35,887 bases of DNA. It comes from Limibacillus sp. (GTDB lineage Bacteria; Pseudomonadota; Alphaproteobacteria; Kiloniellales; CECT-8803). Within the stretch, counting starts at the first letter, position 1; the number at the start of each line of letters is the position of its first letter. Location of the stretch: NCBI GenBank assembly GCA_037379885.1, contig JARRJC010000024.1, forward strand, positions 35,001-70,887, read 5' to 3'. Both the position numbers and the translations under genes were made by a program. The notes beneath the pieces are model-generated. The model made no database searches. It was not told the DNA's origin and saw only the letters and a program-made list of their open reading frames with translations. Below are positions 340 through 25,110 of this stretch, one piece after another.

Positions 340-1233
340 CTGGCGCTTGGCGATAAGCCGGAGATTCTGTTCATCGGACTGGGGAAGATGGGCTTGCCCA
401 TGGCGCGGCGCTTGCTTGAGGGCGGGTACGCCGTGACGGGTTCGGACAGCTCTTCTGGCGCAATGGAGGCCTTCGAGGCCCTGGGCGGCAAGAGGGGGGA
501 CCCGGCCCAAGCGGCCGCGCAGAAAGCTGTGGTCGTGATTACCATGCTCCCGGACGGTGGAACCGTCCGGAAGGTCCTGCTCGGCGAGCGCGGCCTGGCG
601 CCTTTCTTGGGCGAGGGCGCCTGCGTCATCGACATGAGCTCTTCCGCGCCCGAGGGAACACAGCAGCTGCAGCGCGATCTTTCCGCTCTCGGGGTCCCTC
701 TGGTCGATGCTCCAGTTTCCGGCGGCGTGAAGAAGGCGGTGGACGGGACGCTGGCGATCATGGCCGGAGGGGAGCCCGCGGATATCGAGCGTGTCACGCC
801 CATCCTCTCCTGCATGGGAGCAAAGATTTTCAGGGCCGGGCCCATCGGCGCCGGGCACGCCATGAAGGCGCTCAACAACTTTGTTTCAGCCGCGGGCCTG
901 ACGGCGCTCTGCGAGGCCCTTGTGGTCGGCGAGCGCTTCGGGATCGACGGAGAGGCGATGGTGGACATCCTCAACGCCTCGACGGGGCGCAACAACTCCA
1001 GCGAGGTCAAAGCCAAGCCCTTCATCCTGTCGGGACGTTACGATTCCGGTTTCGCGCTCGCTCTGATGTCGAAGGACATCGGAATCGCCGCCGCTCTGGC
1101 CGAGAGCCTGGGCCTCGACACACCGAACCTGCGGCAGAGCAATGCGCTTTGGAGGGAGGCCTTGGCCGAACTCGGACCAGAGGCCGATCACACGGAGATC
1201 TTCAAGGCGATCGCCGCCAGGAAAGGGGAGTAA
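340..1233 (+). CDS. 3-hydroxyisobutyrate dehydrogenase family NAD(P)-dependent oxidoreductase, probable CTG start
   Basis: Beta-hydroxyacid dehydrogenase family: NAD(P)-dependent oxidation of a short 3-hydroxy acid or reduction of a semialdehyde, in the cytoplasm. Visible motifs are the N-terminal dinucleotide motif IGLGKMG, the substrate motif DAPVSGG near residues 123-129, and the catalytic lysine in GHAMKALNNF near residue 176. The first ATG in frame (388) lies inside the dinucleotide motif and would remove its first glycines. Upstream to the stop at 277 the frame contains no ATG, GTG or TTG. CTG at 340 has a good Shine-Dalgarno (GAGGAG, 325-330) nine bases ahead and gives a normal 297-residue protein, so I chose it. 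The next gene follows 3 bases after the stop. The exact substrate cannot be told from sequence. Confidence 0.88.
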   Translation: MALGDKPEILFIGLGKMGLPMARRLLEGGYAVTGSDSSSGAMEAFEALGGKRGDPAQAAAQKAVVVITMLPDGGTVRKVLLGERGLAPFLGEGACVIDMSSSAPEGTQQLQRDLSALGVPLVDAPVSGGVKKAVDGTLAIMAGGEPADIERVTPILSCMGAKIFRAGPIGAGHAMKALNNFVSAAGLTALCEALVVGERFGIDGEAMVDILNASTGRNNSSEVKAKPFILSGRYDSGFALALMSKDIGIAAALAESLGLDTPNLRQSNALWREALAELGPEADHTEIFKAIAARKGE

Positions 1234-1236
1234 GCA

Positions 1237-2034
1237 ATGAGTGAGGAGACCTACGAGGTCTACGCCATCAAGTACGGCCACCACGACCGCCCGGCGCGCG
1301 AGAACTTTCTCGACGGGCGGGGCGACGACCACAACATGCCGCTCGACTACTTCCTCTGGGCCATCGTCGGAGAGGACAGGAGCTTCGTCGTGGACTGCGG
1401 TTTCGACGAGGTGACCGGGCGCGCGCGTGGGCGCAAGACCACGAGACCGCCCGCGGAGGGCTTGAAGGCCATCGGCCTGGCGCCGGAGAGGGTCGAGGAC
1501 GTGATCATCACCCACATGCACTACGATCACGCGGGCAACCACACCCTCTTTCCCGAGGCGCGCTATCACCTGCAGGAGCGAGAGATGCACTACTGCACGG
1601 GCCGCTGCATGTGCCACGGTGCCCTCAATCACGCTTTCGAGGCGGAGGACGTCGCAGCGATGGTGCGCCGGGTCTTCGAGGGCAGGGTGCGCTTCCACGA
1701 CGGCGCATCCGAGATCGCCCCCGGCCTATCGGTTCATTGGATCGGCGGGCACACCGACGGACTTCAGGTGGTCCGGGTGCGCACGCGCCGCGGCTGGCTG
1801 GTGCTCGCCTCCGACGCCTCCCACTTCTATGCGAACATGGATCAGGCGCGGCCCTTTCCGATCGTCTACAACCTGGGCGACATGCTGGAAGGCTACCGAA
1901 AGCTCGACGCCTTGGCCGAAAGCCACGCGCATGTGATTCCGGGACACGACCCTCAGGTCCTGACCCGCTATCCGGCGGCGGGCAGGGGGCTCGAAGATTG
2001 GGTTGTGCGGCTCGACGCCGATCCGCTTGCGTAA
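1237..2034 (+). CDS. Metallo-beta-lactamase-fold hydrolase (AHL-lactonase-like)
   Basis: A 265-residue MBL-fold protein. The zinc motif HMHYDH is at residues 93-98 (H93, H95, D97, H98). Further ligands fit the His of GGHTDG, the Asp of SDASH and the His of PGHD. This full HxHxDH~H~D~H set is that of class B hydrolases such as AttM/AiiA lactonases and related esterases. It starts 3 bases after the dehydrogenase and is surely co-transcribed with it. In this catabolic setting a lactone or ester hydrolysis step is more likely than quorum quenching, but both remain possible. It ends 2 bases before the stop of the convergent GntR gene, leaving no room for a terminator between them. Confidence 0.9.
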   Translation: MSEETYEVYAIKYGHHDRPARENFLDGRGDDHNMPLDYFLWAIVGEDRSFVVDCGFDEVTGRARGRKTTRPPAEGLKAIGLAPERVEDVIITHMHYDHAGNHTLFPEARYHLQEREMHYCTGRCMCHGALNHAFEAEDVAAMVRRVFEGRVRFHDGASEIAPGLSVHWIGGHTDGLQVVRVRTRRGWLVLASDASHFYANMDQARPFPIVYNLGDMLEGYRKLDALAESHAHVIPGHDPQVLTRYPAAGRGLEDWVVRLDADPLA

Positions 2035-2036
2035 CC

Positions 2037-2714
2037 TTAACCGGGCCTGGTCGAGCTCTCGGCGCGTCTCGCGCCCATGGAGGTGTGGTTCTGCTGCATG
2101 TTGGCGACCGCGACCATGTCGCCGGTCGCCATCCAGAAGGCCGTCTCCTCCAGCTCGCGCAGAAGCAACGCCAGCTCCCTTTCCGGATTTTCCTGGAAGT
2201 AGGGGAACCAGAAGGGCGCGACCTTGTAATAGTAGAGATCGTGGAGCTGGCGCAGTTCCGGGTTCTCGATCAAGGCGTTGATGATACCGTGACGCCGTTC
2301 GTTGCAGCGCCAGAAAGTCATGGCGTCGCAGGGGACGGTGAGGCTGGAGAGCTCCTCATGAAGCGCGGCCATGCCCGCAGCGCTCTCAGGCGGACAGGGG
2401 CGGGTGGCCAATCGGCCGATCATGCCGGCGACCTCGATGCGCATGGCATAGATGGCCGCCAAGGTAGAGGGGTCGCCTGCCGTCACGATGGTGCCGACGC
2501 CCCGGCGTGTCTCCACAAGCCCATGGTTCGCCAGCCGCTGTAGCGTTTCGCGCACCGGCGTGCGGCTGACCCCGAACTCCTCGGCCAGTTCGGTTTCGCG
2601 CAGGATCGCGCCGAAGGGATAGAGGGCCGTGCAGATGCGCTCCCTCAGAACTTCGTAGAGGCGCGTTTCGCTTCGCAGTGGCTCAGGCGGCTGCGGGTTG
2701 GTTTGGTGGTTCAT
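2037..2714 (-). CDS. GntR family transcriptional regulator, FadR/FCD type
   Basis: A 225-residue regulator with an N-terminal winged helix (residues about 18-85). The recognition segment AEEFGVSRTPVRETL is the GntR hallmark, and the helical C-terminal half fits an FCD effector domain. It starts 4 bases after the isomerase gene stops on the same strand, so the two are co-transcribed. The operator candidates lie upstream of the isomerase at 3535-3608, implying autoregulation together with control of the divergent amidase/M24 operon. The effector is probably a pathway acid or its intermediate (inference). Confidence 0.93.
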   Translation of the reverse strand: MNHQTNPQPPEPLRSETRLYEVLRERICTALYPFGAILRETELAEEFGVSRTPVRETLQRLANHGLVETRRGVGTIVTAGDPSTLAAIYAMRIEVAGMIGRLATRPCPPESAAGMAALHEELSSLTVPCDAMTFWRCNERRHGIINALIENPELRQLHDLYYYKVAPFWFPYFQENPERELALLLRELEETAFWMATGDMVAVANMQQNHTSMGARRAESSTRPG

Positions 2715-2718
2715 GGGC

Positions 2719-3516
2719 CTAGTGCTCCCGCAGCAAACGGCCCAGCCCTTCCAGGCGGTCCTCGGCGCCCGCCAGCCGCAGGCAGTCCCAGAGCATGGCC
2801 TGGTTCGAGCAGATCACCGGCTTGCCGATCTTCCGCTCAATCTCCTCCACCACCTCGATGCTGCGCAGCGCGCCACAGCTGAGTAGCAGCGCGTCGGCCT
2901 CCGGCTGGTCCAGGGCGCAGGCGAACTCGACCAGATAGTCCGGGGCCACCCGGATCATCTCGGTGTCGTAGCTGAGTCCCATGCCGCGCGCGGCCACCAC
3001 TTCGAAGCCTGCAGCCTTCAGATAGCGCGCCACGGCCTCGTTCAACTCCGGCAGATAGGGAGAGCCCAGGACGATGCGCTTCGCGTCCATGGCCGTCAGG
3101 GCCTTGCGCACGGATCCGGCCAGGGTGGTGGCCTTGGCCCCCGGCGCACCTTTCAAAAGCTCCTGGCGGGCCGCCTCTTCGCCCACGGCCACCGTGCCCG
3201 AGGTGCAGGCGAGGCAGATAACATCCACCTTGTCGTCCGGCAGAATCCGGGAGGCGGCGTCTGCGAGGCTTCCGCGCAGCTGCGCCAGGCTTTCACTGGT
3301 GATCTCCCGGGGCATCGCCGCGCGGGCGAAGTACCCGCCGAAGCCGGGCGGAAGGTGCCGGATCATGTCCTCCTCGATCGTCTGCTCGTTGGGGATCAGG
3401 ACAAAGCCGATCTTGCCGCGCGCGTTGCGCCCCGCATCGAAGCGGACCGGTCCCGCGGAGAAGCTTTCCAGCGATGCGACATCAGGGTGATCAAGGCGCA
3501 CGTCGCTCTCCTTCAA
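2719..3516 (-). CDS. Maleate isomerase / Asp-Glu racemase superfamily protein
   Basis: A 265-residue cytoplasmic enzyme of the maleate cis-trans isomerase/arylmalonate decarboxylase type. Two catalytic cysteines are placed as in the family: C104 in LACTSGT and C214 in LLSCGALRS. Family members isomerise maleate to fumarate, racemise amino acids or hydantoins, or decarboxylate malonates using this Cys pair. It is the first gene of a two-gene operon with the GntR regulator and is divergent from the amidase operon. Maleate-type isomerisation after deamidation of a ring-opened compound would match the neighbours, as in nicotinate breakdown, but hydantoin-type racemisation would fit as well. Confidence 0.87.
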   Translation of the reverse strand: MKESDVRLDHPDVASLESFSAGPVRFDAGRNARGKIGFVLIPNEQTIEEDMIRHLPPGFGGYFARAAMPREITSESLAQLRGSLADAASRILPDDKVDVICLACTSGTVAVGEEAARQELLKGAPGAKATTLAGSVRKALTAMDAKRIVLGSPYLPELNEAVARYLKAAGFEVVAARGMGLSYDTEMIRVAPDYLVEFACALDQPEADALLLSCGALRSIEVVEEIERKIGKPVICSNQAMLWDCLRLAGAEDRLEGLGRLLREH

Positions 3517-3534
3517 GGTCAGAAAATTGGAATG

Positions 3535-3608
3535 GATGTATACATCAAAGACCTGAAGTCATGTAAACATGCAGTTAAATTAGCGAATTGCAGTCAAGAA
3601 GTATACAT
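3535..3608. promoter_or_regulatory. Array of three ATGTATACAT-like operator candidates
   Basis: The divergent promoter region between the isomerase and the GatC-like gene has a perfect 12-bp palindrome GATGTATACATC (3535-3546). It is followed by ATGTAAACAT (3561-3570, one mismatch to the core) and AAGTATACAT (3599-3608, one mismatch). GTATAC-centred palindromes are known for FadR-type GntR proteins such as UxuR/ExuR, and a GntR gene sits in the adjoining operon. I infer these are its operators. Confidence 0.7.
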
Positions 3609-3664
3609 ATTAGCATGTTTTCGACTCAAGGCGCCGCGGCGTCTACATCCAACGGGAGACGGTC

Positions 3665-3886
3665 ATGGCACGCAGCAAGGCAACGCTCGCCACCCTCCAA
3701 GGTCTGCGGGACAGCCTGGCGTCTTTTGCCTGGCGCGATGAGGAGTTGAGCGAGCTTGTCGATCCCCGGTTCGGGATCATCACCGGGTTTGAGGATCTAC
3801 TGGACGAACTGGAATCTCTGCGTGCGCTCGACCTTGGCGAGACGCCGCCCGCCGAGGGCGTGAGCGCGAAGCGTTCGACCCCATGA
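3665..3886 (+). CDS. GatC/AtzG-like small amidase subunit
   Basis: A 73-residue acidic protein without membrane segments. Its central LLDELESLRALDLGETPPA stretch resembles the end of GatC and of AtzG, the small partner of 1-carboxybiuret hydrolase AtzE. In those systems the small subunit wraps around and stabilises the amidase. It lies directly before the amidase with a 4-base ATGA overlap at 3883-3886, which points to translational coupling and fixed stoichiometry. A purine-rich Shine-Dalgarno (GGGAGAC) lies about 7 bases before the ATG. Similarity is weak by eye, so the call rests largely on size and position. Confidence 0.72.
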   Translation: MARSKATLATLQGLRDSLASFAWRDEELSELVDPRFGIITGFEDLLDELESLRALDLGETPPAEGVSAKRSTP

Positions 3887-5304
3887 CCTTCGAGAGATCC
3901 GCGCCAGATCGCATCCCAGACTTTGCGTCGCTTGGGAGACTGGCGGCCTTGCGCGATGAGGGCAAGGTTTCAACCGGGGACATCGTGAGACATTGCCTAG
4001 CGCGGATTGCGGCGCTGAACGAGCGCAGCAAGGCCTTTATCTCGGTTGACCTGGAAGGGGCGCTTGCCCAGGCCGAGTCACTTGAGCGGAGAGAGAGCGG
4101 CGTACTTCGTGGGCTGCCTTATGCCGTCAAGGACCTCTTCGACGTGGCCGGTCAGGTGACGACGGCCGGTTCGCGTGTCTTCGCGGATCGTCAGGCTAGC
4201 GAAGATGCAGAGAGTGTCGCGCGCCTGCGCCGGGCGGGGGCGATCTGTCTGGGCAAGCTGAACCTTCACGAGTTCGCCTACGGGGCCACGGGGGAGAATC
4301 AGCTCTACGGCACGCCCGTGAACGCCTATGACCACCAACGGCTTGCCGGCGGCTCCTCCAGCGGCTCAGCCGCCGCCGTGGCCTTCGGGATGGTCCCGGC
4401 GGCGCTCGGCACCGATACCGGCGGATCGGTGCGCGCGCCTGCGGCGCTGAGCGGTCTGGTTGGCCTGAAGCCCACCCTGGGCCTGATCTCCACGCGGGGC
4501 GTGATTCCCTATTGCTGGTCACTGGATCACCTGGGCTGCATCACCAGGAGCGCGGCGGACGCGGCGTTGCTGCTTTCGGTGCTGGCGGGCCACGATCCCC
4601 TGGACCCGGCGAGCGCCGATGTCGAGGTTCAGGACTATCCGGCTGCCATCGCACCACGAGGCAGCCTGGAGGGCGTGACCATCGGGATCCCGCGTGTCTT
4701 CTACTTCGAGCGCTGCGACCCGCAGATCCTCGCCGCGAGCGAGGCGGTGATGAAGCATCTCGAGCGACGGGGCGCGCGGCTGCTCGACGTGGAGCTGCCC
4801 TCGATGGAGCGGGCGCGCAGTGTATCGCTGACCATCCAGATGCCTGAGGCGCTGAGCTATCACATGCCTCACCTGGAGGCGCGAGGCGATCTCTACAGCG
4901 AGGAGTTCCGCGCCGGGCTGGCCCTGGGGCAATGCATCCTGGCCGAACACTATGTGCGGGCGCGCCGCATGCTGACCCTCTATCGCCGGCAGGTCGATGC
5001 GCTGTTCCAGGAGGTGGACGCCCTTCTGACCCCGGCCACGCCGGTGGTGGCGCCGCCGCTCGGCAGCGTGAGGCTGGGCAGCGGAGCGGACGCCGAACCC
5101 GTGGGCAACGCCATCACGCGCTACACCACCTTCTTCAACATGACCGGGCACCCAGCCATGACCCTGCCTTCGGGCCTGCATGGAACCGGACTGCCCATGG
5201 GGGTGCAGCTTGTGGCCCGGCATTTCGACGAAGCTCTGCTGTTCCGGCTCGCCTCCTGCATCGAGAGCGCACCGGAGTTCGCCCTGCCGCCGCCAAATCT
5301 TTGA
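3883..5304 (+). CDS. Amidase-signature hydrolase (AtzE/GatA-like)
   Basis: A 473-residue amidase-signature enzyme. The Ser-cisSer-Lys triad is intact: K83 in YAVKDLF, cis-Ser S158 in AGGSSSGSAAAVA, and nucleophile S182 in GTDTGGSVR. The spacing (75 and 24 residues) equals that of GatA. It cleaves an amide or ureido C-N bond, releasing ammonia or a carbamate. The GatC-like partner next door makes an AtzE-type two-subunit enzyme plausible. It is not the tRNA amidotransferase, because gatB is absent and the gene is embedded among catabolic hydrolases. The first M24 gene follows after 26 bases, with its own Shine-Dalgarno. Confidence 0.92.
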   Translation: MTFERSAPDRIPDFASLGRLAALRDEGKVSTGDIVRHCLARIAALNERSKAFISVDLEGALAQAESLERRESGVLRGLPYAVKDLFDVAGQVTTAGSRVFADRQASEDAESVARLRRAGAICLGKLNLHEFAYGATGENQLYGTPVNAYDHQRLAGGSSSGSAAAVAFGMVPAALGTDTGGSVRAPAALSGLVGLKPTLGLISTRGVIPYCWSLDHLGCITRSAADAALLLSVLAGHDPLDPASADVEVQDYPAAIAPRGSLEGVTIGIPRVFYFERCDPQILAASEAVMKHLERRGARLLDVELPSMERARSVSLTIQMPEALSYHMPHLEARGDLYSEEFRAGLALGQCILAEHYVRARRMLTLYRRQVDALFQEVDALLTPATPVVAPPLGSVRLGSGADAEPVGNAITRYTTFFNMTGHPAMTLPSGLHGTGLPMGVQLVARHFDEALLFRLASCIESAPEFALPPPNL

Positions 5305-5330
5305 TCCCGCCGCAACGAGGAGAGCCCGCG

Positions 5331-6476
5331 ATGCATTCCAATCCCTTCAGCGACGAAGAACTGGCGCGGCGCTTGGAAGCGACGCGCGCCGCGATGGCAG
5401 GCAAAGGCGTGGAGATCGCGCTTTTCTCCGCTCCGGAGAACATCTTCTACCTGATCGGTCTGGATCACTGGGGCTACTTCGCGCCCCATGTCCTTGTCGT
5501 GCCGGCGGAGGGAGACCTGCTGCTCATCACCCGCGCCATGGAGAAGGTGGTGATCCGCAATCAGGTGCGGAACGCAGCCTTCCTTGGACACAGCGATTCA
5601 GAGACGGCGGCGGATGTCCTCATCAAGCACCTCGGAGGGGCGGGGAGAGGAAAGGCCATCGGTTATGAGGCCTGGTCCTCGGGGTTCTCCCACGCCATGG
5701 GCCTGAAGCTTAGAGACGGGGTGCAGGCGAAGGAATGGATCGATATCAGCGGTCTCCTGGATGGCCTGCGCAACGTGAAGTCGCCGGAAGAGCAGCACTA
5801 CATGCGTCTAGCCGCCCAGGCCGCCGATGCTGGGACTGACGCCGCCATCGCCGCCTGCCACGACGGCGCGCGGGAGGCCGACGTCGCCGCGGAATGTCTG
5901 GCCGCCATGACCCGGGCCGGAGGTACGCCGCCGGGCTTCGGCCCCTTCATCCGCCCGGCCCGCCGCATGGCCGAGGAACACACCTCCTGGGGCGATGGTC
6001 TGCACGCCGAGGCGGTCTTCCTGGAGGTGGCGGGCTGCGTGGCGCGCTACAACGCGCCCATGGGCAGGCTGGTCAGCATCGGCGGGATAAAGGACGAGGA
6101 TGCGGCTATGGCCGAGCTTTCGATCAAGGCTTTCGACGCCACTCTGGCGGCGCTTAAACCCGGTGCGAAGGCGCGCGACGTCTATCAGGGCTGGCAGGCG
6201 GTTGTGGACGCCGCCGGGATGCCGGAGTACCGCCGTCATCACTGCGGCTATCTGGTGGGCATCGGGTTTCCGCCATCCTGGACCGGGGGGCCGAAGGTCA
6301 ACGGCCTGCGCCATGACTCGGATCTGGAGATGCAGGCGGGCATGACCTACCACCTCATGTCCTGGTTCACCGAGACTGGGCGGGGCAACTTCTTCGTCTC
6401 CAACACGGTCCTGCTGGGACCCAACGGGGCTGAGGTCCTGAACCGCGTGCCCTATGGCCCGCATGTCACCCAATAG
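5331..6476 (+). CDS. M24-family hydrolase, creatinase/ectoine-hydrolase type (copy 1)
   Basis: A 381-residue two-domain protein with a creatinase-type N-terminal domain (about 1-145) and a pita-bread M24 domain. The ATG at 5331 follows AACGAGGAGAG and was chosen over distant upstream starts that lie inside the amidase gene. The M24 core is recognisable (GIGFPPSW, MQAGMTYHLMSW), but the Asp pair of metal-dependent aminopeptidases is replaced by EVAGCVARYN. The last ligand region reads FFVSNTVLL. This pattern is like creatinase and ectoine hydrolase DoeA, which hydrolyse small amidino or cyclic compounds without metal. It is probably not a true Xaa-Pro peptidase. It is followed by a second M24 gene. 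Confidence 0.88.
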   Translation: MHSNPFSDEELARRLEATRAAMAGKGVEIALFSAPENIFYLIGLDHWGYFAPHVLVVPAEGDLLLITRAMEKVVIRNQVRNAAFLGHSDSETAADVLIKHLGGAGRGKAIGYEAWSSGFSHAMGLKLRDGVQAKEWIDISGLLDGLRNVKSPEEQHYMRLAAQAADAGTDAAIAACHDGAREADVAAECLAAMTRAGGTPPGFGPFIRPARRMAEEHTSWGDGLHAEAVFLEVAGCVARYNAPMGRLVSIGGIKDEDAAMAELSIKAFDATLAALKPGAKARDVYQGWQAVVDAAGMPEYRRHHCGYLVGIGFPPSWTGGPKVNGLRHDSDLEMQAGMTYHLMSWFTETGRGNFFVSNTVLLGPNGAEVLNRVPYGPHVTQ

Positions 6477-6498
6477 AACCCTCGGGAGGGACATCATC

Positions 6499-7650
6499 AT
6501 GCTGGAGCATGCCAAACGGCGCATGGCTGAGTTTCAAGAACGCCTCAAAGATCAAGGGGTGGAACTGGCGATCCTGACCGATGAGGCCTCCATCGCCTAT
6601 CTGGCGGGCTTCTGGGGCTACCTCGGGATCGAGTTCGGGCGGCCGACCTTTCTTCTGGTCCGGCCTGACGAGGCGCCCAGCGTCATCACACCTCTCATGG
6701 AGAGCGAGATGGTCTCCGCCATGACCTGGGTGGAGCGGGTGCTGCCCTGGGAGGACTTCGGGCAGCGCGGCTGGCCGAGGGTGCTTCAGGAAGCGGTCGG
6801 CGCGTCGCCCAAGGAGATATGGGTGGAACGCGACCGGCTGCCGGCGATCGTCCGGAACTTCCTGGATGAGCGCTATCCGGATGCTGCCCTGAAGGACGTA
6901 GCCCCGATCCTAGGCGAGCAGCGCATGATCAAGGGGCCGGAAGAGATCGCCGTGATGCGCCAGGCGGGCCTGGTGGCCGGGGCGATGATGCGGGCGGCGG
7001 GCGACTCCCTGAAGCAGGGCGTCCCGGAGTATGAGTCGGCCCTGGCGGTGATCGATGCGGGGAGCCGCGCGGCGGCAGGATTCCTGACCGACCGCGGCTG
7101 GGAGGCTTTCGTCTCTCCCATGATCCATAACCTGCAGATCATGCAGAGCGGGCGGGATACCTCGATGGTGCACCGCCGCGCTTCGGTCAAGCGCCTGGAG
7201 CGCGGCGATCCCGTCTACTTTTGCTTTTGCAACATGGCCCAGTTCAAGCAGTACAAGCTCGGCTTCGACCGTATGTTCCATATCGGCGAGGTGAGCGACG
7301 AGGCGGCGCGGGTGCAACAGGCGGCGATCGACGCCCAGCAGGCCGCGGTTGCCGCCATCCGGCCCGGTGTTCGCGCCGAGGAGGTGGCCCAGGCCGCGAA
7401 CGAGGTCTACCGCGAACGCGGCTATGAGACGGGCTATCGCACGGGACGCTCCATCGGCGTCGCCTACCTGGAGGCCCCCGAGCTGAAGGATGGCGATAAG
7501 ACCATCCTGCGGCCCGGCATGACCTTCGCCGTCGATGGCGGCATCTCCCTCGAAGGCGCCTGCGGCGGGCGCATTGGTGATTCGCTCGTGGTGACGGAGG
7601 AAGGCAGCGACTACCTGACCGACTATCCCAGGCGGCTTCTGGTGGTGTAG
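6499..7650 (+). CDS. M24-family hydrolase, metal-ligand-poor (copy 2)
   Basis: A 383-residue paralogue of the preceding gene in the same operon. The ATG at 6499 follows GGGAGGGA at 6484-6491; an ATG at 6454 would overlap gene 1 and lacks such a site. The N-terminal domain (IAYLAGFWGY, IEFGRPTFLLVRP) is creatinase-like. In the catalytic domain the Asp pair position reads YFCFCNMAQFKQYKLGFDR, the usual TGHGIG is TGRSIG, and the usual E-P-G is replaced in the RPGMTFAVDGG region. The classic metal set is therefore missing. The two copies are strongly diverged, so they may act on successive intermediates or form a heteromer. No gene follows on this strand for 277 bases. Confidence 0.86.
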   Translation: MLEHAKRRMAEFQERLKDQGVELAILTDEASIAYLAGFWGYLGIEFGRPTFLLVRPDEAPSVITPLMESEMVSAMTWVERVLPWEDFGQRGWPRVLQEAVGASPKEIWVERDRLPAIVRNFLDERYPDAALKDVAPILGEQRMIKGPEEIAVMRQAGLVAGAMMRAAGDSLKQGVPEYESALAVIDAGSRAAAGFLTDRGWEAFVSPMIHNLQIMQSGRDTSMVHRRASVKRLERGDPVYFCFCNMAQFKQYKLGFDRMFHIGEVSDEAARVQQAAIDAQQAAVAAIRPGVRAEEVAQAANEVYRERGYETGYRTGRSIGVAYLEAPELKDGDKTILRPGMTFAVDGGISLEGACGGRIGDSLVVTEEGSDYLTDYPRRLLVV

Positions 7651-7927
7651 CCGGCTCCGAACGTCGGTTTTCCACCCTGTGGACTGATTTTCCAAGGCAC
7701 TGATATAGCTTTAGGAATCGCGGAAATCCGCGGGTCCTGGCGAGCTATGCCTTGCGAGCCGCGCAGCCATGATTCCAGTGCATCGAAAAAGCGAAACGCC
7801 GTTCTTGATTTGCTCAATATGGCGTGCCACCTAATTGGTCGAACGCAGCGATGATTCAGTTTTTCGAGGCATGGTGGTCATGCGGAGGAAAGAGGGATCG
7901 TGAACCAAACCTGAGAGGAGGCGGACG

Positions 7928-8047
7928 ATGACGAAAGATGATCTGATTCGGGAATATAACCAGCGTGCCGCTTCCTGGCCGGCGCTGCTCGGCGTCTATC
8001 TGATTCTGGTCGCTGTCATGGCCGTGTCTGCCATGTCGATCATCTAA
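7928..8047 (+). CDS. 39-residue single-span membrane miniprotein
   Basis: ATG at 7928 is preceded by an excellent Shine-Dalgarno (GAGAGGAGG). The product has a charged N-terminus (MTKDDLIREYNQRAAS) and one hydrophobic helix (about residues 18-39), ending at TAA 8045-8047. A strong rho-independent terminator lies 55 bases downstream, so it looks like a complete one-gene transcription unit. It is too short for usual gene callers. Function is not recognised. It could be a small regulatory or stress membrane protein; a role with the adjacent transporter is possible but unsupported. Confidence 0.7.
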   Translation: MTKDDLIREYNQRAASWPALLGVYLILVAVMAVSAMSII

Positions 8048-8102
8048 TCTGGACAGTCTGCCTAGCCTAGCTCCCCCCAGCGAAGCAGCTGAACGAAACA
8101 AG

Positions 8103-8137
8103 AAAAGCCCCGCTGCCAGACCGGCAGCGGGGCTTTT
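8103..8137. terminator. Bidirectional rho-independent terminator
   Basis: A perfect 15-bp stem (8103-8117 with 8123-8137) with a 5-base loop. T-runs occur in both orientations because the stem begins with AAAA and ends with TTTT. It ends the miniprotein transcript on + and the ABC importer operon on -, whose last stop is at 8161. Confidence 0.92.
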
Positions 8138-8160
8138 TGCTTTCTGCCCGGTGCAGGGGC

Positions 8161-9834
8161 TTAGTTTTCCGGCACCGCGTCGCCCACCTTGGTGGCCGCT
8201 TCGCCGACGTTGTCGACACCGCGTTCTTCCAGAAGGGTGGTCAGCCAGTTCGGATCCATCTCCGGGACGGACGAGAGCAACAGGTCCGTATAGGGATGGT
8301 GGGGCGGGGTGAACATCTCATCCTTGGGCCCCTGTTCGACGACCAGGCCCTTCTGCATCACCACGACTTCGTCGGCGATGGAACGCACCGTCGCCAGATC
8401 GTGGGTGATGAACATGTAGGCCAGGTCCAGCTCTTGCTGCAGGCGGTCGAGAAGCTTCAGGATTCCCTCGGCCACCAACTGGTCCAGTGCCGATGTCACC
8501 TCGTCGCAGATGATGAAGGTCGGCTCCGCCGCCAGCGCCCGGGCGATGCCGATGCGCTGTTTTTGGCCACCCGACAACTCAGGCGGATAGCGGTAGTAGA
8601 ACTTGGACGGCTCCAGCTCGATCAGGTCGAGCAGTTCGTCGATCCGGTTCTTCAGCGCGGCGCCCTTGAGCCCGCCGTAGAACTGCGCCGGACGGCCGAT
8701 GATATCGCTGATCATCACCTTGGGATTCAGCGCGGTGTCGGCCATCTGGTAGATCATCTGCGCCTGACGCAGCTGATCCTTGGTGCGGTTCTTGTAGCTG
8801 GGCGGCAGCGTCTCGCCCTTGAACTGAACCTCTCCGCTGGTGGGCGGGAGCAGCCCGGTGATGCAGCGCGCCGTCGTGGACTTGCCCGAACCGGACTCAC
8901 CCACCACGGCCACGGTCATGCCGGCGTAGACGTCGAAGGAGACGTCTTCGAGCACCGGCGTGTCGCCGTATGAAGCGCTGACGGTCTTGATGGAGACCAC
9001 CGGCGTGGCGTCGCCGCCGGGCCGGCTCTTCTGGTCCCGCTTGAAGCTGCGAACGGCCCAGAGGCTCTTGGTGTAGTCCTCCTTGGGATGCTGGAGCATC
9101 TCCTCGGTGGGCGCTTCCTCGACCTCGTTGCCTTTCAAGAGCACCTTGATGGTGTCTGCCATCTGCGCCACGACCGCCAGGTCGTGGGTGATGTAGATGG
9201 CGGCGGTGTTGAACTGGTCGACGATGTCGCGGATCGCGGCCAGAACCTCGATCTGCGTCGTCACGTCCAGGGCCGTGGTCGGCTCATCGAAGATGATGAG
9301 GTCCGGCCGGCAGGCCATGGCCATGGCGGTCATGGCGCGCTGCAACTGACCGCCCGACACCTGGTGAGGATAGCGAAAGCCGATCTCGTTGGGTGTCGGA
9401 AGCCGCAGCCGCTCATAGAGCTGCATGGCGTCTTCCTGGGCCTCCGTCCGCTTCTTGATGCGGTACTGGATCGGCGCTTCGGTGTGCTGGTCGATGATCT
9501 TGTGCGCCGGGTTGAAGGAAGCCGCGGCCGACTGCGCCACGTAGGCGATCCGCGATCCGCGCAGCGCCCGGAGGCTCGATTCCGGCGTGGTGGTCAGCTC
9601 CATGCCGTCGAACTCGATGGAACCGCCGGAAATGCGGCAGCCGTCCCGGGCGTACCCCATGGCGGCCAGTCCGATGGTCGACTTGCCCGCGCCGGACTCG
9701 CCGATCAGGCCCATGACCTCACCCCGGTGAAGGGTCAGGTCGACACCGTGGACGATCTCGTTCCACTTTTCGTCGGCGTAACCTTCGATCCGAAGATCTC
9801 TTATTTTGAGCAAGACGCTCTTATCAGCATTCAT
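8161..9834 (-). CDS. Peptide/nickel-type ABC transporter, double ATPase (DppD-DppF fusion)
   Basis: A 557-residue protein with two complete nucleotide-binding domains that energise the adjoining permeases at the inner membrane. NBD1 has Walker A GESGAGKST (45-53), signature VSGGQLQR (159-166) and Walker B DLIIFDEPTTALD. NBD2 has GESGSGKST (312-320), signature LSGGQKQR (420-427) and FIICDEVTSALD. Both NBDs look active, so the usual separate D and F subunits are provided by one chain. The short 270-280 stretch is the linker, and NBD1 ends with the oligopeptide-type tail region. It is the last gene of the operon, 4 bases after the DppC-like gene. Confidence 0.95.
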   Translation of the reverse strand: MNADKSVLLKIRDLRIEGYADEKWNEIVHGVDLTLHRGEVMGLIGESGAGKSTIGLAAMGYARDGCRISGGSIEFDGMELTTTPESSLRALRGSRIAYVAQSAAASFNPAHKIIDQHTEAPIQYRIKKRTEAQEDAMQLYERLRLPTPNEIGFRYPHQVSGGQLQRAMTAMAMACRPDLIIFDEPTTALDVTTQIEVLAAIRDIVDQFNTAAIYITHDLAVVAQMADTIKVLLKGNEVEEAPTEEMLQHPKEDYTKSLWAVRSFKRDQKSRPGGDATPVVSIKTVSASYGDTPVLEDVSFDVYAGMTVAVVGESGSGKSTTARCITGLLPPTSGEVQFKGETLPPSYKNRTKDQLRQAQMIYQMADTALNPKVMISDIIGRPAQFYGGLKGAALKNRIDELLDLIELEPSKFYYRYPPELSGGQKQRIGIARALAAEPTFIICDEVTSALDQLVAEGILKLLDRLQQELDLAYMFITHDLATVRSIADEVVVMQKGLVVEQGPKDEMFTPPHHPYTDLLLSSVPEMDPNWLTTLLEERGVDNVGEAATKVGDAVPEN

Positions 9835-9838
9835 CTTA

Positions 9839-10900
9839 TTACCCCTTCAGTCCGGAGGAGCGGTACAGCATCCAGTCGACGACGAAGTTCACCGCCACGG
9901 TCAGAAGCGCAATGGCGCCTGCCGGGATCAGCGGTGTGATGTCGCCAAAGGAAATCAGCGTCGCGTTCTCACGCACCATGGAACCCCAGTCCGCGGTCGG
10001 CGGCTGAATACCGAGACCCAGGAAGGAGAGACCGGCGATCAGCAGGAACACGAAACAGAACTCCAGGCCGAACTCCGCGATCAAAGGTGCTGTGGAGTTG
10101 GGCAGGATCTCCCTGCGGATCAGGTACCAGGTGCCTTCGCCGCGAAGCTTGGCCGCTTCGATGTAGTCCATCACCACCACGTTGCCGGCGACCGCGCGGG
10201 TCAGGCGGAAGACGCGGGGTGAATAGATCACCGCGACGATGATGACCATCACGTAGAGGTCCGTGCCGAAGATCGACAGCATCAGCAGCGCGAAGATCAG
10301 CGAAGGGATCGACATGATCACGTCCGCCGCGCGCCCCATGATCTGATCGAACCAACCGCCCTTGGTTGCGGCCAAGAGCCCCGCGATCGCCCCCATCAAG
10401 AAGGCGAGGAGGGTGGCCACCAGGGCGAGACCGACCGTGTTCCGCGCGCCATAGATGATGCGGCTGAACATGTCGCGGCCCAACTGGTCCGCGCCCAGCA
10501 GCATCTGCTCGTCGGGTGGAGCGAAGGCCGTGGAGATGACCTCGGCCTGCCCATAGGGCGCGATGATCGGGGCGAAGATGCCGGCGATCGCGTAGGTGAA
10601 GATCACGAAGAGACCGAAAGCCGCCGTCAAGGGAGCGGTCTTGATCTCCTTGGAGGTCTCGGTGGGCGCGATGATCACCAGGAACTCGCGGAAGGCGTAG
10701 GAGGTGCCCGCCGCGAGGGCCAGAAGACCGGCCGCGATCGTGACCGCGTAAAGAGCGCTCGGTCCGCCGACGATGCCCATGACGAAGGACACCAGGGTCA
10801 GCGAGAAGAGCAGAAGGAAGACCTGACGCTTGTTGTAGAAAGCCGCCAGGCAGGACGCCCCGATGAGGAGGGCGTAGTAACCGACTACGAAGAAACTCAT
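9839..10900 (-). CDS. ABC transporter permease, DppC/OppC type, with N-terminal extension
   Basis: A 353-residue inner-membrane permease. The canonical DppC start region (PLTAAFGLFVIFTYAIAGIFAP) begins only near residue 90, followed by the LGADQLGRDMFSRIIYGAR segment and the EAA loop region around EAAKLRGEGTW that docks the ATPase. The first ~75 residues add about three extra hydrophobic helices, not seen in standard ~300-residue DppC proteins. A downstream start would not restore a standard protein better, because the extension is hydrophobic and well formed and ATG 10900 follows a purine-rich site. It starts 12 bases after the DppB stop. Confidence 0.92.
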   Translation of the reverse strand: MSFFVVGYYALLIGASCLAAFYNKRQVFLLLFSLTLVSFVMGIVGGPSALYAVTIAAGLLALAAGTSYAFREFLVIIAPTETSKEIKTAPLTAAFGLFVIFTYAIAGIFAPIIAPYGQAEVISTAFAPPDEQMLLGADQLGRDMFSRIIYGARNTVGLALVATLLAFLMGAIAGLLAATKGGWFDQIMGRAADVIMSIPSLIFALLMLSIFGTDLYVMVIIVAVIYSPRVFRLTRAVAGNVVVMDYIEAAKLRGEGTWYLIRREILPNSTAPLIAEFGLEFCFVFLLIAGLSFLGLGIQPPTADWGSMVRENATLISFGDITPLIPAGAIALLTVAVNFVVDWMLYRSSGLKG

Positions 10901-10912
10901 GGTTTGCCCCCC

Positions 10913-11869
10913 TTACTTCGGATGCCTGAGACGCGGGTTCGTCAGGATTGCTCCGACGTCCGCGGCGAGGTTCAAGAGAATGAAGGTCGCTGCGAAGATC
11001 AGGCAGCAGGCCTGCACGATCGGGAAGTCCCGCTTCGACACGGCGTCGACCAGAAGCTGACCGATGCCGGGATAAACGAAGACCACCTCGACCAGCACCA
11101 CGCCGGTGATCAGGTATGCGAGGTTCAGGGCAACCACGTTGATGATGGGCGCCCAGGCGTTCGGCAGGGCGTGCCTGACGATCACCTTCCAGGGCGGAAC
11201 GCCCTTCAACTGGGCCATCTCGATATAGGGAGAGGCCAAGAGGTTGATGATCGCTGCGCGGGTCATGCGCATCATGTGCGCGGTCACAACCAAGACCATC
11301 GTGAGCGCCGGCAGGAAGGTCCTGTGCAGAAGCTCAGGGAGGGTCATATCCCGGCTGAGACTGGCGATGGCCGGAAACATGTCCGACTTCACCGCCAGGT
11401 ACAGGATCAGGATGTAGCCCAGGAAGAACTCGGGCGAAGAGATGGAGGTGAGGGACAGAACGTTGGCGACCCGGTCGAAGATCGAGTTGCGCAGCAGCGC
11501 CACGATGACGCCCAGCACGATCGAAAGAGGAACCGCGATCACGGCTGCATAGGCGGCCAGGAACAGCGTGTTCATGAAGCGCGGGCCGATAGCGCCGCCC
11601 ACGCGCTCGCCCGAAATCAGCGAAACGCCGAAGTCCATCTGCACTGCGCCCGCCAGCCAATCCAGGTAGCGGAAGATAGCAGGCTGATCCAAGCCGAGCT
11701 GCTCGCGCATGGCGCGGACGTTCTCTTCCGTCGCGCCCTGGCCGAGCACGGCCTGTGCGATATCGCCGGGAAGGAGTTCCACGGCGAAGAAAATGAGGAT
11801 CGAAATCACGAGAAGCGTGACCAGACCGAGCCCGAGCCGTTTCAGCACGAGCATCAGAACATCACCCAT
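10913..11869 (-). CDS. ABC transporter permease, DppB/OppB type
   Basis: A 318-residue permease with the usual six membrane helices. The N-terminal LLVISILIFFAVELLPGD and the Q-L-G-L-D-Q-P segment are typical of DppB. The coupling loop near MAQLKGVPPWKVIVRHALPNA contacts the ATPase. A strong Shine-Dalgarno (GGAGGGA) is 5 bases before the ATG. It pairs with the DppC-like subunit to form the pore for an oligopeptide or similar solute. About 165 bases separate it from the binding-protein gene upstream, and that spacer carries a stem-loop. Confidence 0.95.
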   Translation of the reverse strand: MGDVLMLVLKRLGLGLVTLLVISILIFFAVELLPGDIAQAVLGQGATEENVRAMREQLGLDQPAIFRYLDWLAGAVQMDFGVSLISGERVGGAIGPRFMNTLFLAAYAAVIAVPLSIVLGVIVALLRNSIFDRVANVLSLTSISSPEFFLGYILILYLAVKSDMFPAIASLSRDMTLPELLHRTFLPALTMVLVVTAHMMRMTRAAIINLLASPYIEMAQLKGVPPWKVIVRHALPNAWAPIINVVALNLAYLITGVVLVEVVFVYPGIGQLLVDAVSKRDFPIVQACCLIFAATFILLNLAADVGAILTNPRLRHPK

Positions 11870-11991
11870 TCTATCCCTCCAAACTTTTCGCTGACCTGCG
11901 GGAAGCTATGGATCAGCGCCCCTGTTTCCCCTGCGTCGGGTTCTCTGCGGCCTCCCGCGGCCGTGAGAACCTCTGGTCTTGATGGAAGAAG

Positions 11992-12016
11992 GCCCGGCGC
12001 CAATCTGACGCCGGGC
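11992..12016 (-). terminator. Intercistronic stem-loop after the binding-protein gene
   Basis: An 8-bp G/C stem (11992-11999 with 12009-12016) extended by weaker A-T/G-T pairs, 18 bases past the stop of the binding-protein gene in its direction of transcription. No T-run follows. Such hairpins commonly protect the binding-protein mRNA and lower permease expression, so partial attenuation is the likely role. Confidence 0.65.
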
Positions 12017-12034
12017 TTCCTCAGACCGTCTTGC

Positions 12035-13645
12035 TTAGCTGTCGAACCACCAGCGGCTGCAGGCCCGTGCGCCGTCGCACTGCCAGCTGGCCGCAAGGTT
12101 CTCGCCGTGCTGCACGTTCTTGCGGCGTGCATAGACGAAGTTGGTGAACATCGGGATGATGGTGCCACCGTCATCACGGGCGAGCTGGCACATCTCGTGA
12201 TACATCTCGGCCCGCTTGTCCTGGTCCAATTCGGCCTTGGCGGTGCGCAACAACTCATTGAAGCGCTCGTTCTGCCAATGGCTCTCGTTCCAGGCGGCGT
12301 CGTCCTTGTACGCCAGGCTGAACATCACGTCCGGAGTCGGACGCGCGCCCCACTGCACCATGCAGAAAGGCTTCTTCAGCCAGACATCGGAGTAGTAGCC
12401 GTCGTTCGGCTCACGCACGACCTTGAGGTCGATGCCCGCCGCCTTGGCCTGCTCCGAGTAGAGAACGCACATGTCGACAGCACCGGAGTAGACCGAGTCG
12501 GCCACCGAGATGTTGATCGAGAGGTTCTCATGCCCCGCCTTCTTGAGAAGCGACTTGGCCTGATCCGGATCGTAGGTCCGCTGAGGGATGTCGTCCGGGT
12601 GATACGGCATGTTCGGGGCGACGTGGAAGTCGTTGCCCGGAATGGCCGTACCAAAGGCGATCTTCTCGATGATCTCCTCACGGTTGATGGCCAGCTTCAA
12701 GGCGTTGCGAACATTGACGTCGTCGAAGGGTGCCTGATCGCAGAACATCGGCATGGTGATCGCCGCCGCGCTGGGCACGTTGTCGATCAAGATGTTCGGA
12801 TCACGCTGGAGAAGCGAGAGCGTCTTGAGCTCAAGCTGCGTCACGGCGTCCACGTCTCCGGTGACGAGCGCGGTCTGGCGGGCGTTCGGGTCGTTGAGGA
12901 CCGTCATCACCACGTCATCGAAGTAGGCGCCTTCCAGGTGCCAGCCTTCATGGCGCGTCAGGGTGCAGGAGACACCGAACTCGTTGTCGACGATCTTGTA
13001 GGGGCCGGAGCCGTCGCCGGACTGCCAGTTGGCCGATCCGTCGTCGTTGGCCGGAACGATGGCCAAGTGGTAGTCGGTCATCAGCCAGGGCAGGTCGGCG
13101 TTGCCGGTCGCCAGTTCGAAGACGACGGCGTGATCGCCATCGGCGCGGATGTCCGTGACGTCCTTCAAGAGCGCCGTGGCAGCGGAGGTGGAGTCCGGGC
13201 CGCGGTGATGGTTCATGGAGGCGATCACGTCCGTCGAAGTCACGGGCTTGCCGCTGTGGAAGCTGGCGTTCTGGTTCAGTTTGAAAGTCCAGGTCTTGGC
13301 GTCCGGGGTCGCGGACCATTCGGTGGCGATGTCGGGGCCAAGCGAGTTGTCGGGCTCGATCAAAGTCAGGTAGCTGCGGTAGGTATGCGCCAGCTGAATG
13401 ATCGAGAAGCTGAGATAGGTGCCAGGATCGTGCGTGTCCGAGGTGTTGCCGTCATGGGTTCCAAGACGGAACGTGCCACCCTTAGAAGGGGCGGCTGCCG
13501 CGGACTTCGACCAAAGGCCGGTCGCCGCACTTGCCGTGAGGCCCGCCGCCGTGGCGTAACTCACAAACTCACGGCGGGAAATCCGCCCAAGCCGTGCCTC
13601 TTCGGCAAGTCGGCTGAGCAGTTCCGGATTCGAATTCTTTTTCAT
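12035..13645 (-). CDS. ABC transporter substrate-binding protein, family 5 (SBP_bac_5), Tat-exported
   Basis: A 536-residue periplasmic binding protein of the DppA/OppA/NikA family and first gene of the importer operon. The N-terminus carries a twin-arginine motif in ISRREFVSYA (near residues 22-31), followed by a hydrophobic stretch and AAAA/P for cleavage near residue 52, so it is probably exported folded through Tat. The family signature region WTFKLNQNASFHSGKPVTSTD is clear. The ligand is unknown; Tat export is frequent in alphaproteobacterial family-5 binding proteins. A strong Shine-Dalgarno (GGAGG) precedes the ATG. The promoter should lie in the AT-rich region 13700-14000. Confidence 0.94.
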   Translation of the reverse strand: MKKNSNPELLSRLAEEARLGRISRREFVSYATAAGLTASAATGLWSKSAAAAPSKGGTFRLGTHDGNTSDTHDPGTYLSFSIIQLAHTYRSYLTLIEPDNSLGPDIATEWSATPDAKTWTFKLNQNASFHSGKPVTSTDVIASMNHHRGPDSTSAATALLKDVTDIRADGDHAVVFELATGNADLPWLMTDYHLAIVPANDDGSANWQSGDGSGPYKIVDNEFGVSCTLTRHEGWHLEGAYFDDVVMTVLNDPNARQTALVTGDVDAVTQLELKTLSLLQRDPNILIDNVPSAAAITMPMFCDQAPFDDVNVRNALKLAINREEIIEKIAFGTAIPGNDFHVAPNMPYHPDDIPQRTYDPDQAKSLLKKAGHENLSINISVADSVYSGAVDMCVLYSEQAKAAGIDLKVVREPNDGYYSDVWLKKPFCMVQWGARPTPDVMFSLAYKDDAAWNESHWQNERFNELLRTAKAELDQDKRAEMYHEMCQLARDDGGTIIPMFTNFVYARRKNVQHGENLAASWQCDGARACSRWWFDS

Positions 13646-15408: not shown

Positions 15409-15478
15409 CGAGGGTTCCTTGTGGTTTGGCTTTGGGCTGAGTCTCAAATATGACGGGAGCGGTTGCGGAGCAAGGCGA

Positions 15479-24366: not shown

Positions 24367-25110
24367 CTAGGCGGTCGCCCCGCCGTCGATGACGTAGGCG
24401 GCGCCATTGATCTGCTTTGAGTCTCCGGAAGCGAGAAAGAGCACGAGGGCGGCGACCTCCTCGGGCAGCGTGACCCGTCCGGAGGGCGACTCCGCGTTGC
24501 TGGCGGCCAGCGCCTCGGAGGGGTCTTGTCCGCTCTGCCGGGCCTCGGCGGTCAGCATCGGGGTATCCACGTCGCCGGGACAGACCGCATTGATACGGAT
24601 TCCTTCGCCCGCATGGTCGCGCGCCATGGCTCTCGTAAGCAGCACCAGGCCGCCCTTCGACGCGCAGTAGGCCGCGGCCCGCTCGCCGCCGACCATGCCC
24701 CAGTCCGAGGCGATGTTGACGATGGAGCCTCCTCCGGCGGCCCGGATCAGGGGCAGGCAGGCGCGGCTGAGGTAGAAGGGCGCATGAAGGTTCGCTTCCA
24801 AAGTCTCCCGCCACTCCTCGTCGCTGGTTTCCTCCACCGTGCGGCGGTAGATCACGCCGGCGGCGTTCACCAGACAATCCAGCGCACCGAAAGTCTCTTC
24901 CGCTGCCTTGGCGAGGCGAGCGCAGGCGGCGGGGTCGCGTATATCACCGCTCCAAAGCGCTATCTCCGGGTTCGCCTCCTTCAGCTTCGCAAGCCTCTCT
25001 TCGCTGCGCCCGGCCGCCAGCAGCTTGTATCCGGCCCCGGCGAAGGCCGCCACGCAGGCTTTCCCGATACCCGAAGAAGCCCCTGTCACCAAGACGCGTT
25101 TCTCGCTCAT
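24367..25110 (-). CDS. Short-chain dehydrogenase/reductase (SDR)
   Basis: A 247-residue classical SDR. The cofactor motif TGASSGIGKA is near residues 10-19, NAAG is present, and the catalytic Ser, Tyr and Lys lie in NIASDWG and YCASKGG. The C-terminal INGAAYVIDGGATA closes the Rossmann domain. A basic residue after the first strand (AAGRSEERL) hints at NADP(H). The start overlaps the stop of the MlrC-GNAT gene by 4 bases, so the two are translationally coupled. Reaction: oxidation of a secondary alcohol or reduction of a ketone; substrate not predictable. Confidence 0.94.
   Translation of the reverse strand: MSEKRVLVTGASSGIGKACVAAFAGAGYKLLAAGRSEERLAKLKEANPEIALWSGDIRDPAACARLAKAAEETFGALDCLVNAAGVIYRRTVEETSDEEWRETLEANLHAPFYLSRACLPLIRAAGGGSIVNIASDWGMVGGERAAAYCASKGGLVLLTRAMARDHAGEGIRINAVCPGDVDTPMLTAEARQSGQDPSEALAASNAESPSGRVTLPEEVAALVLFLASGDSKQINGAAYVIDGGATA

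Follow-up and report, generated by a model that had tools for sequence, protein, structure and literature searches.

What compound is broken down by a gene cluster that joins two creatinase-type M24 proteins to an amidase? The question arises from a 35,887-nucleotide stretch of a Limibacillus sp. genome (contig C24, JARRJC010000024.1, positions 35001–70887; hereafter the window, from a genome of 3.1 Mb in 128 contigs). Here four plus-strand genes, encoding a small protein, an amidase and the M24 proteins M24a and M24b, are tightly packed at 3665–7650 with intergenic gaps of −4, 26 and 22 bases, and diverge from the genes of a GntR-family regulator and a EutA-like protein. The answer proposed below, to which we assign an even chance, is a conserved module serving the catabolism of a single small, carboxylated nitrogen compound, for which we infer the reactions, their order and the substrate class. 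It builds on what is directly visible, namely the gene content and its conserved order, the loss of metal ligands, the separation of clades, the exchange of one amidase type for another, and operator-like sites. An earlier sequence-only reading had described the packed run, the metal-free M24 pair, and the divergent GntR gene and maleate-isomerase-family enzyme, and all of these are confirmed, the enzyme being closest to EutA and the regulator of the GntR/FCD type. The set it listed was incomplete, and the ABC transporter, an interchangeable nitrilase, a sarcosine-oxidase link, the relationship to EutA and the operator-like sites are added here. The genes are as follows.

2037–2714, minus strand: GntR-family regulator with FCD ligand domain (PF00392, 65 bits, and PF07729, 30.6 bits, both above cut-off)
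2719–3516, minus strand: EutA-like protein of the arylmalonate decarboxylase/maleate isomerase/Asp-Glu racemase superfamily (TTG start; PF17645, 106 bits; TIGR02990, 195.8 bits)
3665–3886, plus strand: small 73-residue protein, by position the presumed amidase partner (AtzG/GatC analogue), overlapping the amidase start by 4 bases
3883–5304, plus strand: AtzE-like amidase-signature enzyme, 473 residues (PF01425, 377 bits; TIGR02715, 332 bits)
5331–6476, plus strand: M24a, of the DoeA-like branch, without metal ligands (PF00557, PF01321; own clade)
6499–7650, plus strand: M24b, with creatinase-like features, without metal ligands (PF00557, PF01321; own widespread clade)
8161–9834, minus strand: ABC transporter ATPase with two ABC domains, oligopeptide/nickel class (87% identical in loci L086 and L091)
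9839–10900, minus strand: ABC transporter permease (PF00528; 86% identical in L086 and L091)
10913–11869, minus strand: ABC transporter permease (PF00528; 87% identical in L086 and L091)
12035–13645, minus strand: ABC transporter solute-binding protein, family 5 (PF00496, 255 bits; 68–70% identical in L086, L091 and L155)

The M24a start (5331) was set from orthologs; the first ATG of its open frame, at 4932, falls within the amidase.

Two M24 proteins without metal ligands

M24a and M24b both adopt the M24 pita-bread fold. Each matches PF00557 and PF01321 above cut-off, and Foldseek relates the AlphaFold models of both to M24 (pita-bread) structures with probability 1.00. The best PDB match is the ectoine hydrolase DoeA for M24a and creatinase (1chm) for M24b. 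For the M24a model, of modest quality (mean pLDDT 70.6, built from 9 sequences), DoeA (6twk) gives the best E-value, with a query TM-score of 0.77 vs 0.80 for creatinase. For the M24b model (mean pLDDT 82.6, with weak stretches at 204–212 and 316–324) prolidases lead by E-value, and creatinase and DoeA reach the highest query TM-score, 0.81.

The metal site is lost in both. Ligands D, D, H, E and E of prolidase 5cdl correspond to E239, P250, Y314, M350 and S364 in M24a (residues counted from base 5310, seven ahead of the likely start) and to C242, G255, R317, D346 and G360 in M24b, so that the ligand set of the M24 metallopeptidases (prolidase, aminopeptidase P) is found in neither; DoeA has E, P, Y, M and T at the same positions. 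All five positions are unchanged across 98 M24b rows, and four of the five across 15 M24a rows, where position 350 varies among M, L and H (the window enters both sets two times, once directly and once through its own locus). Every row of both proteins does carry a histidine matching the catalytic histidine of creatinase (H225 in M24b). The creatinase GRP motif (G47, R48, P49), which presumably carries the substrate arginine, is present in 98/98 M24b rows, preceded by F in 96/98. M24b has Asp at the positions of creatinase E262 and E358, and R317 and G360 at those of H324 and H376; the pairing of H324 with R317 is that of the HMMER alignment, H324 being out of register in another.

Public records annotate the M24 proteins as Xaa-Pro peptidases, and 11 of 12 plasmid records with an M24b match name it Xaa-Pro peptidase or aminopeptidase P. 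Together with a transporter of the oligopeptide/nickel/opine class, these names would fit peptide or opine scavenging, with the transporter supplying two M24 aminopeptidases and the amidase. We consider this very unlikely: the metal-binding residues are missing from both M24 proteins in all rows compared, which also speaks against the possibility, named by the sequence-only reading as one that would undo it, of two ordinary Xaa-Pro peptidases; other loci have different transporters, such as a BCCT betaine-type (above cut-off) or an Ehu-type; and EutA-like and nitrilase partners are unsuited to peptides. If the conserved neighbourhoods of this metal-free family in marine and rhizobial bacteria are indeed those of a catabolic module, the Xaa-Pro peptidase label would be wrong for the whole M24b annotation class.

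Separation from ectoine hydrolase and creatinase

M24a shares 25% identity with the DoeA of H. elongata and scores 185 and 139 bits against the curated DoeA/EutD models, under cut-offs of 575 and 613, and M24b is 28% identical to creatinase 1chm. In a maximum-likelihood tree of 60 rows, M24b (23 rows) and M24a (14 rows) each form a clade with support 100/100. DoeA stands apart from M24a, grouped with a paralogue from Shinella (10 rows, 100/100), and creatinase apart from M24b, in a group with a protein of the window's own genome (2 rows, 100/99). M24a and DoeA lie within one wider DoeA-like group (32 rows, 100/98); the deeper joins are unsafe because long branches meet there, as the program warned. 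Judged by these sequence comparisons, M24a and M24b group with neither ectoine hydrolase nor creatinase, and each is a clade of its own.

The genome encodes both of those enzymes elsewhere: a DoeA at C10:70524–71693 (754.7 bits, cut-off 613; 64% identical to H. elongata DoeA) and, on C4, a creatinase-clade protein 73% identical to 1chm over 367 residues. Their presence argues against plain ectoine or creatine as substrate, and these two answers were set aside. The breakdown of a cyclic or ureido nitrogen compound, as the sequence-only reading had it, stays plausible with these two plain cases opposed.

A variant ectoine/5-hydroxyectoine cluster would make M24a a diverged ectoine hydrolase, assign the EutA-like protein to 5-hydroxyectoine and let the amidase replace the EutE deacetylase. 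It would explain why a EutA-like protein accompanies a DoeA-like M24a whose ligand pattern is nearly that of DoeA. Further points in its favour come from relatives: rhizobial transporters annotated as the ectoine importers EhuABCD, a threonine/serine dehydratase (EutB family) near M24a in Mesorhizobium AR07, and clusters with two eutD homologs and no eutE, which the text of PMC13188858 files as putative ectoine clusters. Nevertheless the genuine DoeA elsewhere in the genome, 64% identical to that of H. elongata, the low scores of M24a (139–185 bits vs cut-offs of 575–613), its 25% identity and own clade, and the lack of EutB, EutC and EutE among the window genes identified (388–13645) make this variant quite unlikely.

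On the M24b side, a creatine, creatinine or N-methylhydantoin route would have an M24 protein open or cleave a guanidino compound, the amidase or nitrilase remove a carbamoyl group, and sarcosine oxidase take the N-methyl amino acid. The GRP motif and the Asp residues at two creatinase Glu positions in M24b are in keeping with it, but creatinase H324 and H376 are replaced by R and G, M24b is just 28% identical to creatinase, and this genome has a true creatinase elsewhere (73% to 1chm). Evidence from neighbouring genes, given below, bears on this route as well, which on balance we hold to be unlikely.

The amidase and its presumed partner

The amidase is, by its PF01425 match and triad positions, a member of the amidase signature family: K83, S158 and S182 are the same residues as in AtzE at the Lys-Ser-Ser positions, and presumably act as that triad. 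Its identity to the AtzE of Pseudomonas sp. ADP is 37%, and its score of 332 bits with the AtzE model TIGR02715 stays under the cut-off of 425.75.

For the 73-residue protein encoded just before it, the sequence-only reading had proposed a GatC/AtzG-like partner. The gene order agrees with this, whereas no AtzG match was found and similarity to GatC is weak. Searches of Pfam, NCBIfam and PDB gave no convincing match, PF13318 matched none of 11 members of the small-protein family, and hhalign against AtzG (one AtzG sequence) gave a probability of 0.3%. Against GatC the hhalign probability was 13.5% and the score 21.2, the best of 40 column shuffles reaching 18.7; a canonical GatC is encoded elsewhere in the same genome. 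Identity with a true GatC or AtzG was not borne out by profile and alignment comparisons. The small protein is kept beside the amidase in related loci, and 14 of 72,556 plasmid records hold a relative at E ≤ 1e-3, its best place being 16–105 bases from M24a (9) or M24b (5) in 14/14, some of these records being near-duplicates. On the basis of position, not homology, it is presumed to be the partner subunit of the amidase. AtzG is described in PMC6219798 as a non-catalytic, obligate partner without which AtzE is insoluble.

The EutA-like protein, the regulator and operator-like sites

The divergent enzyme has its closest relatives in EutA (TIGR02990, 195.8 bits, cut-off 318) and arylmalonate decarboxylase; the Roseibium EutA relative in L091 also falls under the TIGR02990 cut-off, with 228.7 bits. 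Both catalytic cysteine positions are occupied, C104 in 36/37 rows (the remaining row has a gap) and C214 in 37/37, placing the protein by sequence in the two-cysteine type of the Asp/Glu racemase superfamily. Because Cys stands at both positions, and arylmalonate decarboxylase 3dtv has Gly at the first, the comparison favours a racemase or isomerase reaction over decarboxylation. EutA itself is a proposed racemase of 5-hydroxyectoine, according to a 2018 review.

Two operator-like sites lie between the divergent genes.

3536–3545, divergent promoter region: palindromic operator-like site ATGTATACAT, with GTATACAT twice within the palindrome
3598–3608: second operator-like site GAAGTATACAT, 63 bases further, with a GTATACAT match at 3601–3608

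In the window, both strands counted, GTATACAT has three matches, all in the divergent promoter region, where 0.08 are expected. Of 16 loci with a divergent GntR gene directly upstream of M24b, 11 have a TGTATACA or GGTATACC core upstream of it, as do 5 of 62 others, with 0.81 sites expected over all 78 loci; since the pattern was chosen after viewing the window and the site list, this count is supportive only and no independent test. Paired sites 62–72 bases apart are also present in L086, L111 and L156.

Conserved neighbourhood of M24b

M24b has widespread orthologs, with identities of about 70%. Used as query against 84,980 species genomes, it found 224 relatives, and the locus counts refer to the best 80 of the 224, so that close relatives are favoured; they were made by tblastn, greedy long-ORF gene calls having set an antisense ORF over M24b in 17 loci. 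A nitrilase-type C-N hydrolase lies within 2.5 kb of M24b in 57 of the 80 loci, and an amidase within 6 kb in ten, all ten with the small protein; no locus has both within these limits. The same exchange is seen in the 55 loci whose stretch extends 4.5 kb or more ahead of M24b and 3.5 kb or more beyond it: 39 have the nitrilase, 9 the amidase, none both and 7 neither. EutA is found within 5.5 kb in 29/80, some GntR homolog within 7 kb in 44/80, M24a within 9 kb in 8/80, and a solute-binding protein of the window's type in 3/80.

The fullest versions are found in Roseibium/Labrenzia, where L091, L133, L136 and L155 have EutA, M24b, M24a, the small protein and the amidase; L086 and L112 have the last four. 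M24a is missing from the Ruegeria loci L101, L106 and L110, in which the small protein and amidase come after M24b. The transporter genes next to L086 and L091 are 68–87% identical to those of the window, and the L155 binding protein 70%; the linked oligopeptide-type ABC transporter (8161–13645) belongs to the system. In L143, transporter genes 66–80% identical, GntR, EutA and M24b occur together but with the nitrilase, and the contig ends soon after. An exception is L149, which has no nitrilase and holds its set of M24a, small protein and amidase 8–9 kb away.

Rhizobial plasmids show two forms. In the first (Mesorhizobium AR07, Paraburkholderia phenoliruptrix) GntR and EutA diverge from M24b, small protein and amidase, with an ABC transporter; in the second a transporter annotated as Ehu diverges from M24a, small protein, amidase and sarcosine oxidase. 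The conserved catabolic system foreseen by the sequence-only reading is in this way supported across related loci, and a synteny confined to one strain, which that reading had named as its refutation, is ruled out by recurrence in Roseibium/Labrenzia, Ruegeria and rhizobial loci.

A check that started from genes other than M24b covered 61 genomes of the order, the window's included, of which 23 have M24b at E ≤ 1e-60. Six of seven EutA homologs (at least 44% identity) have an M24b-family gene in their neighbourhood, no more than 200 bases away in five cases and within 3 kb in the window's own, three of these M24b relatives being just 42–44% identical. Eight of nine nitrilase homologs (at least 45% identity) adjoin M24b, and all three amidase homologs (E ≤ 1e-120) lie within 5 kb of it. 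M24a orthologs were rejected as a guide to synteny: G016, G054 and G042 (57–58% identical) are without amidase, M24b and EutA in stretches of 5.4–20 kb.

Related contexts and the substrate class

Genes found near relatives bear on the range of candidate compounds. In L086, L091 and L155 the set is followed by SoxB and SoxA genes, as is M24a in L062 and L204. The SoxA-family protein beside the L086 set scores above cut-off and has a GcvT-like part, which suggests folate-linked N-demethylation, and the presence of a sarcosine-oxidase-type enzyme in several relatives suggests that the substrate, in one version or more, bears an N-methyl group. The route from creatine, creatinine or N-methylhydantoin gains from these genes (SoxA above cut-off) and from hydantoinase genes in L084, L099, L102 and L154. 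It loses by the rarity of SoxB relatives, found in only 9 of 105 loci scanned (one at 24% identity) with none found in the window, and by its hosts, rhizobial and free-living marine bacteria not being obvious creatinine habitats. The genome of the window has two SoxA-type genes above cut-off, one of which belongs to a separate cluster some 28 kb ahead of the window. A sarcosine oxidase-type set of SoxB and SoxA relatives lies on C24 at L208:2238–7444, roughly 30 kb to the left of the window's cluster.

Hydantoinase A and B genes are found about 6–8 kb from M24b in L099 and adjoining it in L102 and L154, and hydantoinase B in L084 (Leucothrix); with a hydantoinase B relative in just 4 of 105 loci scanned, the enzyme was rejected as a core member. 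The nitrilase most resembles N-carbamoylputrescine amidase (121.7 bits, far under the cut-off of 410). Its likeness, the hydantoinase genes and the SoxA context suggest amidine, ureido or hydantoin-like chemistry and do not fix the substrate.

Three contexts deserve record in their own right. In Shinella and Sinorhizobium terangae the DoeA paralogue, M24a and sarcosine oxidase occur together: a tandem pair of DoeA-like M24 genes followed by a sarcosine oxidase set, opposite an Ehu-type transporter (L062:8786–11149, L204:8765–11149), a second candidate pathway, possibly with an N-methylated compound as substrate. The operon-like Leucothrix locus (L084:2034–12869) combines hydantoinase B, an FAD oxidoreductase, an HpcH aldolase, an aminotransferase, an epimerase, an SDR protein, an NADH:flavin oxidoreductase, M24b, the nitrilase and a LysR gene. 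Finally, in six gammaproteobacterial loci (L093, L094, L104, L105, L120, L125) M24b lies beside a BCCT betaine-type transporter and an OpuAC-like binding protein, with EutA in 5/6 (the L104 stretch has no more than 93 bases ahead of M24b) and a gene resembling RidA in 4; neither amidase type was found in these six stretches. Transporter labels TRAP, Pot-type and OpuAC are readings of the sequences, the BCCT and window transporters being those compared with family models.

A proposed pathway and its weight

The compound would be imported by the oligopeptide-type ABC transporter and sensed, as such or as an intermediate, by a putative GntR repressor. M24b and M24a, with the metal site lost and the catalytic histidine kept, may hydrolyse C-N bonds in the manner of creatinase and ectoine hydrolase. 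Next, the amidase and its small partner would cut an amide or ureido product, a task that would fall to the nitrilase-type hydrolase in most of the 80 related loci. The two-cysteine EutA-like enzyme could invert a stereocentre or isomerise a double bond, and in several relatives a folate-linked sarcosine-oxidase-type enzyme may supply a later step. As substrate, an amidine, guanidine or hydantoin-like molecule, either cyclic or open, is the most likely. A wider claim, that this is an undescribed pathway for a common nitrogen compound of seawater and legume-associated soils, involving two new metal-free M24 families and interchangeable amidase types that are unrelated to one another, is in our judgement evenly poised between true and false. 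A search of open-licence PMC papers found no description of the M24b/M24a/amidase module.

Several observations weigh against such a module. Neither amidase type is near M24b in 13 of the 80 loci, and 51 have no EutA within 5.5 kb, some of them owing to a short stretch. In one locus, L121, the nitrilase adjoins M24b and M24a, small protein and amidase lie 7–9 kb off, so that the two amidase types need not be equivalent. The scores of both the EutA-like protein and the amidase are under curated cut-offs, and the M24b model is weak at 316–324, R317 included. Identity limits in the 61-genome check were fixed after viewing the lists, and below them 12 EutA (34–41%) and 13 nitrilase (36–44%) matches adjoin no listed M24b. 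Beyond the module the genes around M24b are very mixed; transporters differ among loci, which may mean several substrates, and that of the window, being of the oligopeptide type, is compatible with peptides. Should the proposed module prove correct, a compound used by many roseobacters and symbiotic rhizobia remains to be named, for which the module yields a short list of testable genes, a candidate operator and host strains already at hand.

Neighbouring genes in the window

On the far side of the GntR gene lie two further genes.

388–1233, convergent with the GntR and EutA genes: hydroxyacid dehydrogenase
1237–2034, convergent with the GntR and EutA genes: MBL hydrolase

The sequence-only reading had counted both with the system. 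They are present and convergent as described; however, they recur in 0/80 (MBL hydrolase) and 1/80 (hydroxyacid dehydrogenase) loci and were rejected as pathway members. A run at 14152–19093 (minus), which shares its strand with the transporter operon and lies immediately upstream of it, encodes TcuA and TcuB, each above an NCBIfam cut-off, together with an isopropylmalate/tartrate dehydrogenase relative and a cysteine-desulfurase-like aminotransferase; no homolog of the TcuA/TcuB run was found at E ≤ 1e-8 among ten related loci. Further on, a single reading frame at 25107–27143 (minus) joins an M81/MlrC-family protein to a C-terminal GNAT acetyltransferase domain.

Comparison with known systems

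Three known systems and one recently listed group resemble the module in part. It shares with the ectoine/5-hydroxyectoine cluster (ehu/ueh-eutABCDE, doeABCD) a EutA-family protein, a DoeA-like M24 protein free of metal ligands, an amide-hydrolysing second step, a GntR-type regulator and an adjacent importer. It differs in having an amidase-signature enzyme with a small protein, or a nitrilase, instead of the EutE deacetylase, and a GntR regulator with an FCD domain where the ectoine cluster has the MocR-type EnuR; the markers eutB, eutC, eutE and enuR are absent from the window genes identified (388–13645).

The 1-carboxybiuret hydrolase AtzG-AtzE of the cyanuric acid pathway (atzDGEHF) likewise has a small protein encoded directly before an amidase-signature enzyme. 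Here, in contrast, the small protein has no detectable AtzG similarity and the amidase scores below the AtzE family cut-off, and AtzD, AtzH and AtzF are not among the window genes identified.

The nearest account in the literature searched, PMC13188858 (2026), lists as putative ectoine clusters some two-eutD, eutE-free clusters of Thermodesulfobacteriota and Bacillota. Common to these and to the module are a pair of EutD-like M24 proteins, the lack of EutE and, often in Bacillota, EutA, whereas the word amidase is absent from the main text of that paper and the proteobacterial M24b/amidase module was not found in it.

With the creatinase and sarcosine oxidase pathway the module has in common the M24 fold, the conserved catalytic histidine, the GRP motif and, in some relatives, sarcosine oxidase; it departs from that pathway in its amidase and EutA partners, in the 28% identity of M24b, and in the R and G at H324 and H376. 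In the proposed reading the module is a parallel to the ectoine and creatine pathways, and not a copy of either.

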